DNA of 35,134 nucleotides from a virus: positions 1 to 35,134 of IMG/VR virus record IMGVR_UViG_3300047359_000221. One strand, given 5' to 3'. Positions within the stretch are counted from its first letter, which is position 1; every line of letters begins with the position of its first letter. Under the pieces are notes generated by a model. That model was not told the DNA's origin, made no database searches, and was given only the letters and a program-made list of their open reading frames with translations. A program made the translations under genes and the position numbers. Below are positions 19,310-24,318 of this stretch, in pieces.

Positions 19310-21072
19310 TCAATTTAAAACATGTAACTCTCAGAAACTTCTTAAGTGTAGGATCAGTTACACAAGCAATTGACTTACAGAATGAGGAACTAACCCTCAT
19401 CTTAGGTGATAACTTAGATTTAGGTGGAGACGGTGCTAGAAATGGTACAGGTAAGACTACTATTATACAAGCAATCAGTTATGCATTGTATGGTGTCCCA
19501 CTTAATAATATCAAACAAAACAACTTAATCAATAGAACTAACGGCAAAGGCATGATGGTCACATTAGACTTTGAAGCCAATGGTGTTGAGTATCGTATTG
19601 AACGTGGTCGTAAGCCGCATGGCATGAAGTTCTTTATCAACGGTGTAGGTGAAGAAGACAACGAAGCACAAGGCGAAAATAAAGAGACACAACAAGTTAT
19701 CGAAGATATCGTAGGAATGTCTTCAGTAATGTTTAGAAACATTATTGCACTTAATACATATAGTCAACCATTCTTAAGCATGACACAAGGACAGCAACGT
19801 GATATTATCGAACAGTTGCTTGGAATAACGTTGTTATCAGAGAAAGCAGAAAAGATTAAGATAACAATTAAGAACAACAAGGAAGAAATTCAACAAGAAG
19901 AATTCAAAGTACAAGCAATAGAAGAAGCAAACAAACGAATAGAAGAACAAATAGACAGTCTTAAAAAGAGAGCAAGACTGTGGGATAACAAGACAGCAGA
20001 AGACATTGACACATTAAAAAATCAAATTACAAGACTAGAAGAATTAGATATTGACGCCGAATTACTTGGACACAAGCAACTAATTGTATACAATGCTTTA
20101 GTTAAGGATCATGCAGATATCGACAAATTGATTACTAGAACTAATAATGATGTTAACCGAGAAGCAAAGGCTGTCAGTAAATTTGAAAAAGAATTAGAGA
20201 TATTAAAACAGAACAAATGTCACACTTGTGGGCAAGACTTCCATGATGATGTACATACACAAGTGTTAGCAGACAAAGAAGAAAGTTTAGTAGAGCATAC
20301 TAATCACTTAACCGAACTAGCAGAAGTGCAAGTAGAATTAGAAGGCGAGAAGAATTCTTTATTTGAAGTAGGGGAACGTCCTACCTTGTTTTATCAATCA
20401 GAAACAGAGGCGATTGAACATAAAAATAAGATCAAAGACCTTAAGGGGCAAGTGTCTCGTAAAGAATCTGATGAAAATCCTTATACAGATCAAATACTTG
20501 AAATGGAAGAAAGTGCATTACAGGAAGCCAATTTTGACAAAATAAACGAGTTGTCACGTTTAGGAGATCATCAGAAGTTCTTGTTAGACCTATTGACAAG
20601 TAAAGATTCATTTGTACGTAAAAAGATTATTGATCAAAACTTATCATACTTAAACTCACGTTTGACAAATTACTTAGATAAGATGGGTCTACCGCATCAA
20701 GTCGTATTCCAAAATGATTTATCTGTAGAAATTACAGAGTTGGGTAGAGAGTTAGACTTTGACAACTTATCTAGGGGAGAACGTAACAGATTGATCTTGG
20801 GATTATCATTCGCATTCAGAGATGTTTGGGAGAACTTATATTTCCCAATCAATACATTGTTTATTGATGAGTTGATTGACTCAGGTCTTGACACTATCGG
20901 TGTTGAGAATGCTATGGCTATTCTTAAAGATATGACACGTAGACGTAACAAGTCAGTTTGGTTAGTATCACACAGAGAAGAATTAGCAGGAAGAGTTGCT
21001 AGTGTATTACAAGTTATTAAAGAGAACGGCTTTACTACATACAACTCGACAAGGGAGTTGGAGGAGTTGTGA
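19306..21072 (+). CDS. gp46: Recombination endonuclease subunit gp46 (SbcC/Rad50-like ATPase)
   Basis: This is the SMC-like ATPase partner of gp47. The Walker A motif is NGTGKTT near residue 50. The signature motif is FDNLSRGERNRLILGLSF near residue 490, and Walker B is TLFIDELIDSG near residue 525. Two coiled-coil arms flank a zinc hook, CHTCG, near residue 305. T4 gp46 has 560 residues, this one 588. The start overlaps the gp47 stop (ATGA), and the stop overlaps the GTG start of the radical SAM gene (GTGA), so the three genes form one unit. Confidence 0.95.
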   Translation: MINLKHVTLRNFLSVGSVTQAIDLQNEELTLILGDNLDLGGDGARNGTGKTTIIQAISYALYGVPLNNIKQNNLINRTNGKGMMVTLDFEANGVEYRIERGRKPHGMKFFINGVGEEDNEAQGENKETQQVIEDIVGMSSVMFRNIIALNTYSQPFLSMTQGQQRDIIEQLLGITLLSEKAEKIKITIKNNKEEIQQEEFKVQAIEEANKRIEEQIDSLKKRARLWDNKTAEDIDTLKNQITRLEELDIDAELLGHKQLIVYNALVKDHADIDKLITRTNNDVNREAKAVSKFEKELEILKQNKCHTCGQDFHDDVHTQVLADKEESLVEHTNHLTELAEVQVELEGEKNSLFEVGERPTLFYQSETEAIEHKNKIKDLKGQVSRKESDENPYTDQILEMEESALQEANFDKINELSRLGDHQKFLLDLLTSKDSFVRKKIIDQNLSYLNSRLTNYLDKMGLPHQVVFQNDLSVEITELGRELDFDNLSRGERNRLILGLSFAFRDVWENLYFPINTLFIDELIDSGLDTIGVENAMAILKDMTRRRNKSVWLVSHREELAGRVASVLQVIKENGFTTYNSTRELEEL

Positions 21073-22085
21073 GTCTAGCCCTATGGCACTGGCATATTGA
21101 AGTTAGCAGTAAGTGTACATTAAAGTGCCCTCGTTGCCCTAGACAAGAAGTTCCTGATACATTAGTCAGTACCGAACTTAAATTAGATTTTTTTAAACAA
21201 AACTTTCCTGCGTTTTTTATATTAGAACACGTAGAGAAACTAACGTTCTGTGGTGACGATGGCGATCCTATCTATGCACATGACTTCATTGAAGTCATCC
21301 AGTATTTCAAATCTATAAAGCCTAGTATAGCAATCATTATCGTCACTAACGGATCATACAAAAACGAAGACTGGTGGACAAGACTAGCAGAGTTATTAGA
21401 CGAACAAGATCAGATACACTTCAGTATAGACGGCTGGAACCATGAGAGTAATAATATATACAGAATCAATTCTAATTGGTCTAGCATCATCACAGGCGTC
21501 TCTATCATCAACGACAAGTCTAACTGTTACACCGTATGGGACGCAATAGGCTTTAAGTTTAACGAAGATAAGATCGAAGACATGCAAAACTATGCAAGAG
21601 AGTTAGGCTTTGATGCGTTTCAATTGACAAGAAGCACTAAGTTCGGTAAGATATACGAAGACTCTTATGGGAAAGAAGATGCTTTACAACCACGTGATGA
21701 TCTGTTATCATCTAGTCATAGATTTGAAAGAGAAGTGGTTACATTTACAGACAAGACAATTAAAGAACCTTGGATGAAGACAAATATTAAACTGTACGAT
21801 GAATCTAAGTTAGTAGGTAATGAACGTCCTCTATGTCATATAGGCAATAAAGGTAGTTACATTAATGCTAGAGGAGAATTTTATCCATGTTGTTGGGTTG
21901 CAACAAGATACGGGCACAACAATAAATGGAACGAAATTGGCAAGAAATATAATCTCTATGAATTGAGATTACCCAAAATTGTAAAAGATAAATTCTGGGA
22001 AGCCGACTTCATACATGACTCTTACGAGTGTCAAACTAAATGTGCCCATCATCGGGTAGATAAAAATTATGCCACCGAGTGGTAA
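21069..22085 (+). CDS. Radical SAM enzyme with SPASM-like C-terminal cysteines
   Basis: The canonical iron-sulfur motif is C16-x3-C20-x2-C23 (CTLKCPRC), followed by a glycine-rich SAM-binding stretch (FCGDDGDPIYAHDF) and strands IIIVTNGS and IHFSIDG, as in radical SAM barrels. The C-terminal third has Cys residues in RPLCHIG, then FYPCCW and CQTKCAHH, which fits a SPASM or twitch auxiliary cluster domain. Enzymes of this type usually modify peptides or small molecules. No precursor peptide gene is obvious nearby, so the substrate is unknown. The start is GTG, four bases inside the end of gp46, with AGGGAG about eleven bases upstream. Coupling to gp46 suggests early or middle expression. It is an accessory gene relative to T4. 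Confidence 0.85.
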   Translation: MSLALWHWHIEVSSKCTLKCPRCPRQEVPDTLVSTELKLDFFKQNFPAFFILEHVEKLTFCGDDGDPIYAHDFIEVIQYFKSIKPSIAIIIVTNGSYKNEDWWTRLAELLDEQDQIHFSIDGWNHESNNIYRINSNWSSIITGVSIINDKSNCYTVWDAIGFKFNEDKIEDMQNYARELGFDAFQLTRSTKFGKIYEDSYGKEDALQPRDDLLSSSHRFEREVVTFTDKTIKEPWMKTNIKLYDESKLVGNERPLCHIGNKGSYINARGEFYPCCWVATRYGHNNKWNEIGKKYNLYELRLPKIVKDKFWEADFIHDSYECQTKCAHHRVDKNYATEW

Positions 22086-22102: not shown

Positions 22103-22690
22103 ATGCCATCACCATCTAAGAATAAAGGATCAGGATTTGAAAGAGAAGTCGCAAGATATCTTTCAGAAACTTACGAAGAAAGTTTTATCAGAGCGCCTGG
22201 ATCAGGTGCATATGTAGGTGGCAAGAATCAAACACGTACAGAAATTTTACATGAAGGACAGATTAGAAGTTTTAAAGGGGACATTGTTCCTGGCGAAAGT
22301 TTCTATAAATTAAATGTAGAATGTAAATTCTATGCAGATTTCCCCTTTCATCAACTTCTATCAGGCTCATGTAGAGTCATAGAAGAATGGCTCGACCAGT
22401 TAATGGATGTGCATGATGAGGGAGATTTTGATGTACTCTTTATGAAGTTTAATCGTAAAGGTCGGTTTGTATGTGTTCCGAGTAAATACACATTCGTAAG
22501 TGACCAGTTCATTTATTACACATCAGACAAACATGCTGACTGGGTAATCTTTGGTTGGGATCACTTTTTTCAATTCAATAAAGATATATTTAAAGCATAC
22601 GCAGGCGACACAGAGACCAACTCAGAACCCACCGTTGACACCAAGTCACAACTATCCTTAAACACAACCACAACTAAAATAGACTTTTAA
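22103..22690 (+). CDS. PD-(D/E)XK-type nuclease, Holliday-junction-resolvase-like
   Basis: The 195-residue protein has the pattern of small PD-(D/E)XK nucleases: an N-terminal helix with GSGFEREVARYL (E13, E15), D60 in the segment FKGDIV, and E73-C-K75 in NVECKFYADF. A basic N-terminus and a Ser/Thr-rich C-terminal tail flank this core. The fold is shared by archaeal Hjc-type resolvases and many phage nucleases. Its place after gp47/gp46 favours a role in recombination or branch resolution, but the substrate is inferred. AAGGAG is 13 bases before the ATG, a rather long spacing. The stop codon lies inside the -35 box of the promoter that follows. Confidence 0.7.
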   Translation: MPSPSKNKGSGFEREVARYLSETYEESFIRAPGSGAYVGGKNQTRTEILHEGQIRSFKGDIVPGESFYKLNVECKFYADFPFHQLLSGSCRVIEEWLDQLMDVHDEGDFDVLFMKFNRKGRFVCVPSKYTFVSDQFIYYTSDKHADWVIFGWDHFFQFNKDIFKAYAGDTETNSEPTVDTKSQLSLNTTTTKIDF

Positions 22691-22716
22691 CATATAGTAT
22701 AGTCGTAATATATACT
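22687..22716 (+). promoter_or_regulatory. Host-type promoter driving the structured non-coding region
   Basis: TTAACA (22687-22692), an 18-base spacer and TATACT (22711-22716) each match the sigma-70 consensus at five of six positions. Initiation is expected near 22723, with no coding gene downstream on this strand before 24359. Confidence 0.55.
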
Positions 22717-22722
22717 CGACTC

Positions 22723-23151
22723 TCCTTGAGGAACCCATTGTAGTGATGGGCAACGGAACTGGAGTAGTGTCTTACAGACATATAAACCGACAAGGCAATC
22801 GTTATGGTAGCGAACCTTGAATGAGTTCATATCTACTTTGATTTGATGATATGAAACATGCGTTGCTGAGAGATCATGCTCATTAGTATGATTGGCTCAA
22901 CTACAGCCCAGTAAACATTACAGAGCAACCGGTTGCAATTGATTATAGTAACGTAATCGATTGGGGATAATCAACATGGATGACAGGGGGTAATGAGAAC
23001 CTGAACCGTGGTAGTGTTTGATAGCACTACCATGGCTTCTAAAAGGTAATAAGACTTAAACAATAACCTTTTAAAATAATAGATTTACCGTTTAAATAAG
23101 AAATTACGAATGAACGAAGTGAATGAGTAATTGGGTCTTCTTTGAAGACCC
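22723..23151 (+). ncRNA. Candidate large structured non-coding RNA (about 430 nt)
   Basis: No reading frame of useful length exists in this stretch. It is packed with local hairpins: 22734-22750 (CCCAT/ATGGG), 22768-22780 (TGTCT/AGACA), 22826-22855 (8 bp), 22873-22892 (7 bp, one G-T), 22936-22963 (10 bp, one G-T, overlapping the 12-base palindrome GCAACCGGTTGC at 22925), 23003-23039 (14 bp with one bulge and one G-T), 23040-23073 (8 bp) and 23133-23151 (8 bp, TTT loop). A promoter precedes it and a perfect hairpin ends it. It looks more GC-rich than the surrounding spacers. I do not recognise a known RNA class. I looked for tRNA, RNase P and group I/II intron core motifs and did not find them. 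The plus strand is chosen because of the promoter. Confidence 0.55.
23133..23151. terminator. Perfect hairpin between convergent units
   Basis: GGGTCTTC-TTT-GAAGACCC forms eight perfect pairs. Neither strand has a clear U-tract after it, so it may be a structural 3' end for the non-coding RNA, for the gp26 transcript, or for both. Confidence 0.45.
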
Positions 23152-23169
23152 TTAAGAATGTTCTAGTGT

Positions 23170-23400
23170 TTAGAAGAATGGCATTTGAGTTTTCTTAGTA
23201 GTTTCTAAGTGTTCCTCAATTATTTTGTTTATGGCTTTGCGTTCTGATAGGGACATGTTAAGGACATCTTCATATGTGGCACCTCCACGCATGTACCAGG
23301 ATAAAGTCAAGGCGTTTGACTTTAAGCCCTGAGTGTATTCTTCATATTTTTGTATCAACTCCCTTATCCCTTCAGGGTCGAGTGAAAGGAGTCTTAGACG
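23170..23400 (-). CDS. -1 frame extension of gp26 (76 codons), small T4-like hub-assembly domain
   Basis: This frame has no credible start of its own. The only upstream candidate is a TTG at 23358 directly abutting AAGGGAG, too close for a ribosome site. The frame is open back to the slippery site at the end of gp26, and residues upstream of that TTG (RLRLLSLDPEGIRE) look like coding sequence continuing into LIQKYEEYTQG. The core contains LSWYMRGGATYEDVLNMSLS, and the end is TTKKTQMPFF. I recall similar small proteins next to gp26 in cyanophages, sometimes labelled gp51, but am not certain of the name. Expression by -1 frameshifting would give a fusion of about 361 residues (285 from gp26 plus 76). 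Separate initiation is the alternative. Confidence 0.7.
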   Translation of the reverse strand, partial: RLRLLSLDPEGIRELIQKYEEYTQGLKSNALTLSWYMRGGATYEDVLNMSLSERKAINKIIEEHLETTKKTQMPFF

Positions 23401-23406
23401 AAAAAA
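23358..23406 (-). promoter_or_regulatory. Programmed -1 ribosomal frameshift signal
   Basis: On the minus strand the gp26 frame reads GAT TTT TTC GTC TAA. The heptamer T-TTT-TTC (23406-23400) is a perfect X-XXY-YYZ slippery site in the zero frame. After a 7-base spacer, ACTCCTTT (23392-23385) can pair with AAGGGAGT (23365-23358) in eight pairs including one G-U. Inside that, a CCC-TGAA-GGG hairpin can form. The site is three bases before the gp26 stop codon. Confidence 0.7.
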
Positions 23407-24254
23407 TCCGATGCGTTTAATGTAAACGGTTGCTTGTACTCATGTCCACATTCTTCTTTTGATGGATCATCTGAGCCTGCTGTGCATACGATAGTAAGAG
23501 GCTTAATTGTTGATTTCTCTCTAAGTTGCGTGTTATGATCTCTTATAGTTTCATAAGTTTTTGTATCCGCATTCTTTAAAAAATCATGTATATGATTAGT
23601 ATCAGTTACCTCTCCCTCTGGAGTAACAATCTTTACAATTGTTTCAGATAAGATTTCCATTGTTAACACTGTAATGTCTTTTAATGCTTCAGCACTTGCT
23701 AGTGTACGTTCTTGTTGATCTTCAATAGAAGATAGATTTTTATATTTTGCTTGAATATCAAACTGCTTTAGACCTGCTTCATTCATTTCTTTGTACTTTA
23801 GGGGTGCAAAATAAATTTCTAACTCATTCATCCTTAAAGGAGTTTTGTAATCACCAGCACCTAATGATTGTAGCAGAACTTGTAGATTAATACCATATGT
23901 TCCTTGTTCTCCGCATTTTTCGCATTCTGATTCTACATCAATAGTCTCTTGTCCACCTGCGGCTTTAATAGAAATTAATACCGTGTCTAAATCAGTGCTT
24001 AATAGTGCCCAAGGATTTTTGATTGATGGGACACAACTTTTAATAATATCTACCATGGCTGTACCATTAAACAATGCATCTGGCGTCTTTGTCGTTATCT
24101 CATCAATTGCTGTCATAGGATAGACAGGCAATTCTTTGTTTTCAGGCCATTCGATGTCCTCTGGTGCGTAATTCTCTCCACCTGACGGCAAAGTGATGTG
24201 TACTGCCGGTCTACGAAAAAATTGTCGTAGTGGATTATTTTCATTCATGCTCAT
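23394..24254 (-). CDS. gp26: Baseplate hub/assembly protein gp26-like (T4 gp26/gp51 family)
   Basis: The protein has 286 residues. The N-terminal half carries a pattern I associate with gp26 of T4-like marine phages: NPLRQFFRRPAVHITLPSGG, ELPVYPMTAIDEITTKTPDA, then DIIKSCVPSIKNPWALL. Four cysteines, C111-x2-C114 and C257-x11-C269, could bind zinc. The role is hub subunit or hub-assembly factor. T4 gp26 has 208 residues. The start at 24254 has GGGGA six bases upstream. The gene is transcribed away from the tape-measure gene, from an inverted repeat with CTAAATA on both strands. Its last codons contain a slippery heptamer leading into a -1 frame, so a longer fusion is likely to be made too. Confidence 0.82.
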   Translation of the reverse strand: MSMNENNPLRQFFRRPAVHITLPSGGENYAPEDIEWPENKELPVYPMTAIDEITTKTPDALFNGTAMVDIIKSCVPSIKNPWALLSTDLDTVLISIKAAGGQETIDVESECEKCGEQGTYGINLQVLLQSLGAGDYKTPLRMNELEIYFAPLKYKEMNEAGLKQFDIQAKYKNLSSIEDQQERTLASAEALKDITVLTMEILSETIVKIVTPEGEVTDTNHIHDFLKNADTKTYETIRDHNTQLREKSTIKPLTIVCTAGSDDPSKEECGHEYKQPFTLNASDFFV

Positions 24255-24288
24255 ATATGTTCCCCATAATAAAATACGGTATTTTTAA

Positions 24289-24318
24289 ATACTAAATACT
24301 AGTGCATATATTTAGTAT
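24289..24318. promoter_or_regulatory. Inverted repeat with face-to-face late-type promoters
   Basis: ATACTAAAT (24289-24297) and ATTTAGTAT (24310-24318) are perfect inverted copies. Each holds CTAAATA on its own strand (24292-24298 plus, 24315-24309 minus). Initiation about six bases downstream puts both start points near 24303-24304. Leaders would be about 50-55 bases to the tape-measure gene and to gp26. The same CTAAATA precedes gp20 and the prohead core gene. Confidence 0.5.

Follow-up and report, generated by a model that had tools for sequence, protein, structure and literature searches.

A conserved structured RNA in a gene-free gap of jumbo T4-like phage genomes

What is encoded in the gap of some 480 nt that follows the resolvase gene of a jumbo phage fragment recovered from a viral sequence collection? 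The fragment (IMG/VR record IMGVR_UViG_3300047359_000221, labelled G000; its 35,134 nt are referred to below as ‘the window’) is a piece of a jumbo T4-like myovirus. It carries genes for a gp55-like sigma factor, gp47 and gp46, a radical-SAM protein, a PDDEXK_15/RusA-like resolvase and a gp26-like baseplate hub protein, and the capsid protein is 66–69% identical to those of Vibrio phage 2.275.O, Phosso, PA5oct and their relatives. An original prediction, made from the letters of the window alone, had described the gap as free of genes and as occupied by a promoter-driven, hairpin-rich non-coding RNA. The first of these statements holds, in that no ORF of 60 aa or more interrupts the stretch from the resolvase stop (22,690) to the point, 23,170, at which a short ORF (‘sORF’) ends. 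A coding role, including one in translational bypassing, was considered and rejected: the longest sense ORF has a median length of 40 codons and is variable, and the take-off and landing frames are not kept.

Judged by sequence comparison, the gap contains a real structured RNA on the + strand, running from approximately 22,702 to 23,060 and followed by two 3' hairpins that extend to 23,151. Its fold, which spans some 350–450 nt and comprises helices P1 to P9, a junction and two pseudoknots, is conserved and strongly selected, and within a clade of jumbo myoviruses it occurs once per phage, always at the same position.

The locus and its distribution

Wherever the flanks of a locus reach far enough, the order of genes around the RNA is constant: sigma55-gp47-gp46-(radical SAM)-resolvase-RNA-sORF(-)-gp26(-)-TMP. 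The radical-SAM gene, which lies between gp46 and the resolvase in the window (21,069–22,085), is present in some of these phages and missing in others. The sORF is without a Pfam or PHROGs match; in Vibrio phage 2.275.O an ORF of 67 aa is found at the equivalent position. Near the 3' end of the resolvase gene (approximately 22,634–22,650), and in its relatives, a DNA word, GACACC(A)(A/C)GTCA (DT[K/T]S in translation), is kept within an otherwise variable C-terminal tail and is repeated in some lineages; it is probably a protein motif, with a role perhaps in clamp binding. In one relative (L187), a SegE-like GIY-YIG endonuclease gene (L187:2653-3096, - strand) occupies the position of the PDDEXK_15 resolvase in front of a retained RNA, which indicates that the RNA is independent of that resolvase.

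A search with the resolvase protein returned 80 viral loci, and the same gap was present in all of those with enough flanking sequence, alignable down to approximately 66% identity. Further loci were collected through scans of viral sequences with two patterns, one a conserved word and the other the near-invariant 3' hairpin described below, so that all counts are to be read as minima; among the matches listed for the hairpin, the only loci found were ones with the same RNA in the same setting. The RNA is present in at least 253 loci of jumbo T4-like phage contigs (some contigs being counted more than once), and no locus holds two copies. RNA-bearing relatives include contigs of 264, 352, 364 and 525 kb, and in genomes of this size range the RNA is single. 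When a profile of the RNA (‘RNA model R1’) was searched, the window matched with an E value of approximately 1e-49 and three large contigs with values of 1e-45 to 1e-54. The 525-kb contig (G001, IMGVR_UViG_3300027749_002876) also displays two mirror-image tRNA arrays, at 115–126 kb and 417–427 kb, which may represent an inverted duplication or an assembly artefact.

Five related isolates (PA5oct, Phosso, Atu_ph07, SCTP-2 and Vibrio phage 2.275.O) gave no full match to RNA model R1, and at best fragments at the level of chance; in Vibrio phage 2.275.O the gene order is the same, but there is no room for the RNA. An exact-pattern scan of approximately 85,000 bacterial species genomes produced eight matches, each limited to the motif itself, and the best of these (L207) was rejected on finding that it sits in a stretch that reads as coding. 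RNA model R1 had zero matches in 497 genomes of two phyla, an empty result that the strict filters of that search make weak, and a single BLAST search found no match in plasmids. Two scans with distant gp26 proteins yielded few loci. On the basis of these searches, the RNA is a feature of one large phage clade, with no cultured member in the collections searched.

Fold of the RNA

The + strand of the gap folds to -130.8 kcal/mol, which is better than 100 out of 100 dinucleotide shuffles (z = -3.7). Because the antisense strand folds nearly as well (z = -3.66), the folding energy indicates structure, and not the strand on which that structure is formed. The fold and the strand are instead addressed by patterns of compensatory change. 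A core alignment of 55 diverse sequences (‘A1’, covering window positions 22,783–22,979) has a mean pairwise identity of 65%, in phages whose gp26 identity drops to 38% and whose resolvase identity drops to 43%. When 41 proposed core pairs were imposed upon it, 98.5% of cells were paired and 30 of the 41 pairs displayed two-sided compensatory changes; shuffled versions of A1 averaged 81.6% and 22.4 pairs, respectively, and none of 500 reached the observed values. Registers slid by one to three columns reduced pairing to 33–39%, and RNAalifold, without prompting, returned the same nested helices.

Pairs were also scored with our own R-scape-like procedure, a G-test with average-product correction for which null alignments were evolved on a FastTree tree. 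Approximately 16 pairs in the core reached E values of 0.02 or less against this phylogenetic null, and an alignment of the whole RNA (73 sequences) added covarying pairs in P1, P2a, P3, the terminal hairpin and PK2. Covariation on the sense strand exceeds what phylogeny would produce, as expected of a conserved structured RNA. Within the helices, G-U combinations fill 73 cells of the alignment and A-C combinations only five, and this imbalance shows that selection acts on the RNA of the + strand.

Coordinates of the individual parts are collected in the table below. As read from covariation, the core takes the form of a four-way junction with two pseudoknots as clamps, and it contains about 48 invariant columns. 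At column pair 22907-22966 of PK2, five combinations occur (UA 42, CG 21, UG 4, AU 3 and GC 2). Helix P2 includes three compensated cases, among them CUCU/AGAG and CUUC/GAAG, and encloses conserved UUGAG and ACGGA strands in addition to P2a; P7, in turn, encloses the near-invariant single strands ACUACAG and UUACAG. Peripheral hairpins are variable in length, as they are in other folded RNAs, and the large insertion in L299 falls exactly in P8 and leaves the core intact.

Table. Parts of the RNA and neighbouring genes, in window coordinates
Feature	Position	Strand	Evidence or remark
PDDEXK_15 / RusA-like resolvase (upstream neighbour)	22103..22690	+	Pfam PF24608, E 5.9e-24; phrog_244
P1, 5' hairpin	22702..22720	+	32 distinct arm pairs in 73 relatives; one pair E ~0 against phylogenetic null
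P2, CUCC (22722-22725) with GGAG (22761-22764)	22722..22764	+	complementary in 73/73
P2a, hairpin inside P2	22734-22738/22746-22750	+	pair 22736-22748 covaries
P3, variable-length hairpin	22768..22780	+	several covarying pairs; helix of 5-11 bp in 73/73
Core four-way junction	22786..22933	+	P4 encloses P5, P6 and P7; A1 covariation and RNAalifold
P4 (ACCG/CGGU)	22786-22789/22930-22933	+	invariant
P5 and P5a	22791-22795/22815-22819 and 22799-22801/22811-22813	+	outer pair GC:29 CG:22 UA:4, 100% paired
P6, stem-loop whose loop is one side of PK1	22821..22859	+	9/9 counted pairs covary; six at E <= 0.02
PK1, UUGAUU with AAUCAA	22838-22843 with 22969-22974	+	99.7% paired; two-sided changes in 5/6 pairs; three at E <= 0.01
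P7	22862-22867/22924-22929 (span 22862..22929)	+	95.5% paired
P8, variable hairpin inside P7	~22868-22898	+	expansion of ~150 nt tolerated in L299
PK2, CCC (of ACUACAGNCCC) with GGG	22907..22909 with 22964-22966	+	100% paired, E ~0
P9, hairpin	22936..22963	+	two-sided changes in 8/8 pairs; 97% paired
3' clamp strand (3' sides of PK2, 22964-22966, and PK1, 22969-22974)	22964..22974	+	covariation
Repeat R1, first short direct repeat	22986..22995	+	same-letter covariation with repeat R2
Near-invariant 3' hairpin, GGUAGUG..CACUACC-AUGG	23006..23035	+	matched in nearly all relatives
Repeat R2, second short direct repeat; end of conserved RNA body	23041..23050	+	co-evolves with repeat R1
Two 3' hairpins	~23103-23133 and 23133-23151	+	in the second, pairs 23139-23145 and 23138-23146 at E ~0
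62-aa sORF (convergent downstream neighbour)	23170..23358	-	adjoins the RNA in 241 of the 253 loci listed
gp26-like baseplate hub protein (convergent downstream neighbour)	23394..24254	-	PF12322, phrog_150

The 3' domain preserves both the long stem and the 8-pair terminal hairpin that the original prediction had picked out in the window, since each is present and conserved among relatives. The second of the two final hairpins is terminator-like, without a T-run, and the two together probably mark the end of the RNA. A further element of the original prediction, a perfect 12-base palindrome (GCAACCGGTTGC) proposed to allow dimerization, did not survive comparison: only 21 of 183 relatives have it in perfect form, and each half is engaged in other pairing, in P7 and P4.

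The near-invariant hairpin is flanked by two short direct repeats, R1 and R2, that change together letter for letter. Position 22988 in repeat R1 carries the same letter as position 23043 in repeat R2 (GG, UU or CC), with an E value of approximately 0.02 against the phylogenetic null; in a stricter subset of sequences the letters agree in 66 of 77, and most of the exceptions are, by our reading, register shifts. Whole repeats have also changed in concert in several lineages, so that L136 has two copies of CTGCATGT and L152 two of AGCAATAT. Within the RNA, no Watson-Crick partner emerged that would account for this covariation, and a local YCC downstream, considered as a partner for the variable base of repeat R1, was rejected because it pairs in only 39 of 77 sequences. 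The pattern would be compatible with an outside partner shared by both repeats, with a shared protein or with a base triple.

Transcription and possible function

The original prediction had placed a promoter (TTAACA-18-TATACT) over the end of the resolvase gene, and this part of it was not borne out. The element scores 10 out of 12, yet promoter-like matches in the region number 50, versus 56.9 expected from shuffles; moreover, its ‘-10’ box forms part of hairpin P1, a helix that covaries as RNA, and relatives are without a match. Promoters of two types are recognizable in the clade, namely CTAAATA, which precedes gp26, TMP and portal, and sigma70-like boxes, which precede sigma55 and gp47. 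Upstream of the RNA, neither a CTAAATA box nor a sigma70-type pair is conserved among relatives, so that a transcript of its own would be putative; the RNA may arise by processing of the resolvase transcript or may depend on an unrecognized promoter. The CTAAATA boxes upstream of gp26, TMP and portal genes are seen in many loci (in the window, at approximately 24,286–24,316) and look like the late promoters of the clade, as a variant of the T4 sequence TATAAATA.

We assign a probability of approximately 0.6 to the reading that the locus encodes a large structured RNA that works in trans, and as RNA, while infection proceeds. The best fit is a structural RNA that stands alone, or a ribonucleoprotein, by analogy with other RNAs that possess equally conserved single strands and tertiary contacts. 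Such an RNA would be made either as the 3' part of a sigma55-gp47-gp46-resolvase transcript or from an unrecognized promoter just upstream, and would end at the hairpins near 23,151. It would then fold into a compact body in which the 3' strand clamps two loops, and the folded molecule would work as a stand-alone scaffold or as a ribonucleoprotein. The invariant unpaired strands ACUACAG, UUACAG and UGCG could form a binding or active surface, with the 3' hairpin and the twin repeats R1 and R2 serving as a putative second docking site. Control of a downstream gene in cis is not expected, since no further gene is met on its strand until past the convergent gp26 genes; a riboswitch or leader was rejected on the same arrangement, in which both downstream genes are convergent and no same-strand gene directly follows. 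A more specific version, which we regard as tentative and as less likely than not, holds that the RNA belongs to a new class of phage RNA ‘machine’ (a ribozyme or an RNA-protein particle) that is needed for infection, and that repeats R1 and R2 change together because they share an external partner, be it a protein or an RNA from host or phage.

The constant place of the RNA behind one operon would also suit an element that acts in cis, as the 3' end of the sigma55-gp47-gp46-resolvase mRNA, where it would contribute to stability, processing or termination and block read-through into the gp26 unit. That explanation draws upon the spacing in the window, where P1 follows the resolvase stop after only about 12 nt, upon the missing conserved promoter between the two, and upon the conserved 3' hairpins at the point where convergent units meet; the RNA is, in addition, always found at the end of the same operon. 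However, two pseudoknots, a four-way junction and the many invariant core columns far exceed what a terminator or stabilizer needs, the resolvase is replaceable, and the gap between gene and RNA can exceed 100 nt (as in L032). On balance we consider a cis-acting element rather unlikely.

A ribozyme of a new class, whose double-pseudoknot active site would cleave or ligate RNA and perhaps free the molecule from the resolvase mRNA, is a less probable proposal still. A core made compact by two pseudoknots and rich in invariant unpaired bases is what such an enzyme might look like, and a position directly behind a coding gene is one from which release would be needed; but no similarity to any Rfam ribozyme family was seen, even at E values of up to 5–10, and no conserved context for a cleavage site was recognized.

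An element that acts at the level of DNA (a replication origin, or a recombination or packaging site, with its inverted repeats extruded as cruciforms) is very improbable: recombination genes do adjoin the locus, and the sign of the GC skew does change 4–6 kb away in two large contigs, but the imbalance between G-U and A-C cells reflects selection on one RNA strand, the pseudoknots are conserved, and the skew change is offset by approximately 5 kb toward the flip in gene direction and lies approximately 30 kb away in a third contig. An origin inferred from GC skew was likewise rejected, as the inflection coincides with the change in gene direction and not with the RNA.

Comparison with known RNAs

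The size and elaborateness of the RNA, together with short words that by eye recall RNase P (for example, ACAGAG..ACCG), raise the prospect of a highly divergent representative of a known class of large RNA, such as RNase P RNA, tmRNA, a group I or II intron, GOLLD, ROOL or OLE. Searches with Rfam models leave this prospect with almost no credibility. At gathering thresholds, cmscan matched no family, GOLLD and ROOL included, either in the window or in 12 relatives, and a loose search returned only chance-like fragments in the window (E values up to 10) and no match in six relatives (E values up to 5). Bacterial and archaeal RNase P models had no match at the same loose thresholds (window, E up to 10; six relatives, E up to 5), and the resemblance seen by eye was discarded, as no model matches and the pattern of pairing is different. 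Models of group I and group II introns were also without a match, and the RNA sits between complete genes; its pairs lack the P4/P2 knot of RNase P and the P3-P7 core of group I introns. ARAGORN and Rfam found no tRNA or tmRNA at the RNA locus, with neither the tRNA-like domain nor the tag ORF of a tmRNA, and the window as a whole also gave no tRNA or tmRNA, in agreement with the earlier observation that features of tRNA, RNase P and self-splicing introns are missing.

The same phages possess a separate and recognizable permuted tmRNA (RF04321), another large RNA, but one that is encoded elsewhere and is unrelated in sequence and fold. It was detected in seven of eight large clade contigs searched, with scores of 95–129 bits, or 81 bits in G010 (at L268:1519-1769, L262:2011-2432 and L231:8571-8865, and also in G007–G010); among the five related isolates, only Sinorhizobium phage Phosso has it.

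Large structured phage RNAs have precedents in GOLLD and ROOL, to which the likeness is one of style only. Like GOLLD, the present RNA is a large and elaborate phage-encoded molecule of unknown function that is also seen in environmental contigs; unlike GOLLD, it is half the size or less and is fixed behind gp46 and the resolvase. It shares with ROOL a phage origin, several pseudoknots and the lack of a known function, but at approximately 350–450 nt it is distinct from ROOL env-120, at 659 nt (PMC12286853), and it displays no sequence or profile match and no tRNA neighbours. GOLLD and ROOL are often found near tRNA islands (PMC12286853); in G001 and G002 such islands are separated from the present RNA by tens to hundreds of kb. 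GOLLD forms a nanocage of RNA only, and ROOL a homo-oligomeric cage. The palindrome described above, which was the sole self-pairing candidate for ROOL-like oligomers, is not conserved. OLE and raiA-motif RNAs are likewise long, structured and endowed with highly conserved single strands, but those RNAs are bacterial and chromosomal, whereas the phage RNA is without an Rfam match.

The prohead RNA (‘pRNA’) of phi29 is a phage RNA with a structural role. It differs from the RNA described here in its length (approximately 174 nt) and its occurrence in small podoviruses, there is no similarity between the two, and nothing at this locus suggests packaging.

A search of the literature, which excluded preprints and most subscription papers, found no report of such an RNA, and its status as a new family is firm as far as Rfam 15 and the searched papers go. 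The central claim of the original prediction, a structured non-coding RNA of approximately 430 nt that falls outside all known classes, has accordingly stood up, at the level of sequence, to examination by synteny, covariation and Rfam covariance search.

Few large natural RNAs combine a conserved tertiary fold with the lack of a known function, and every one of them has opened new biology. Annotation has overlooked an RNA gene carried by a major clade of jumbo phages, and a deep and diverse alignment, combined with two evolutionarily supported pseudoknots, makes this RNA a ready target for structural work and for a search for its function.
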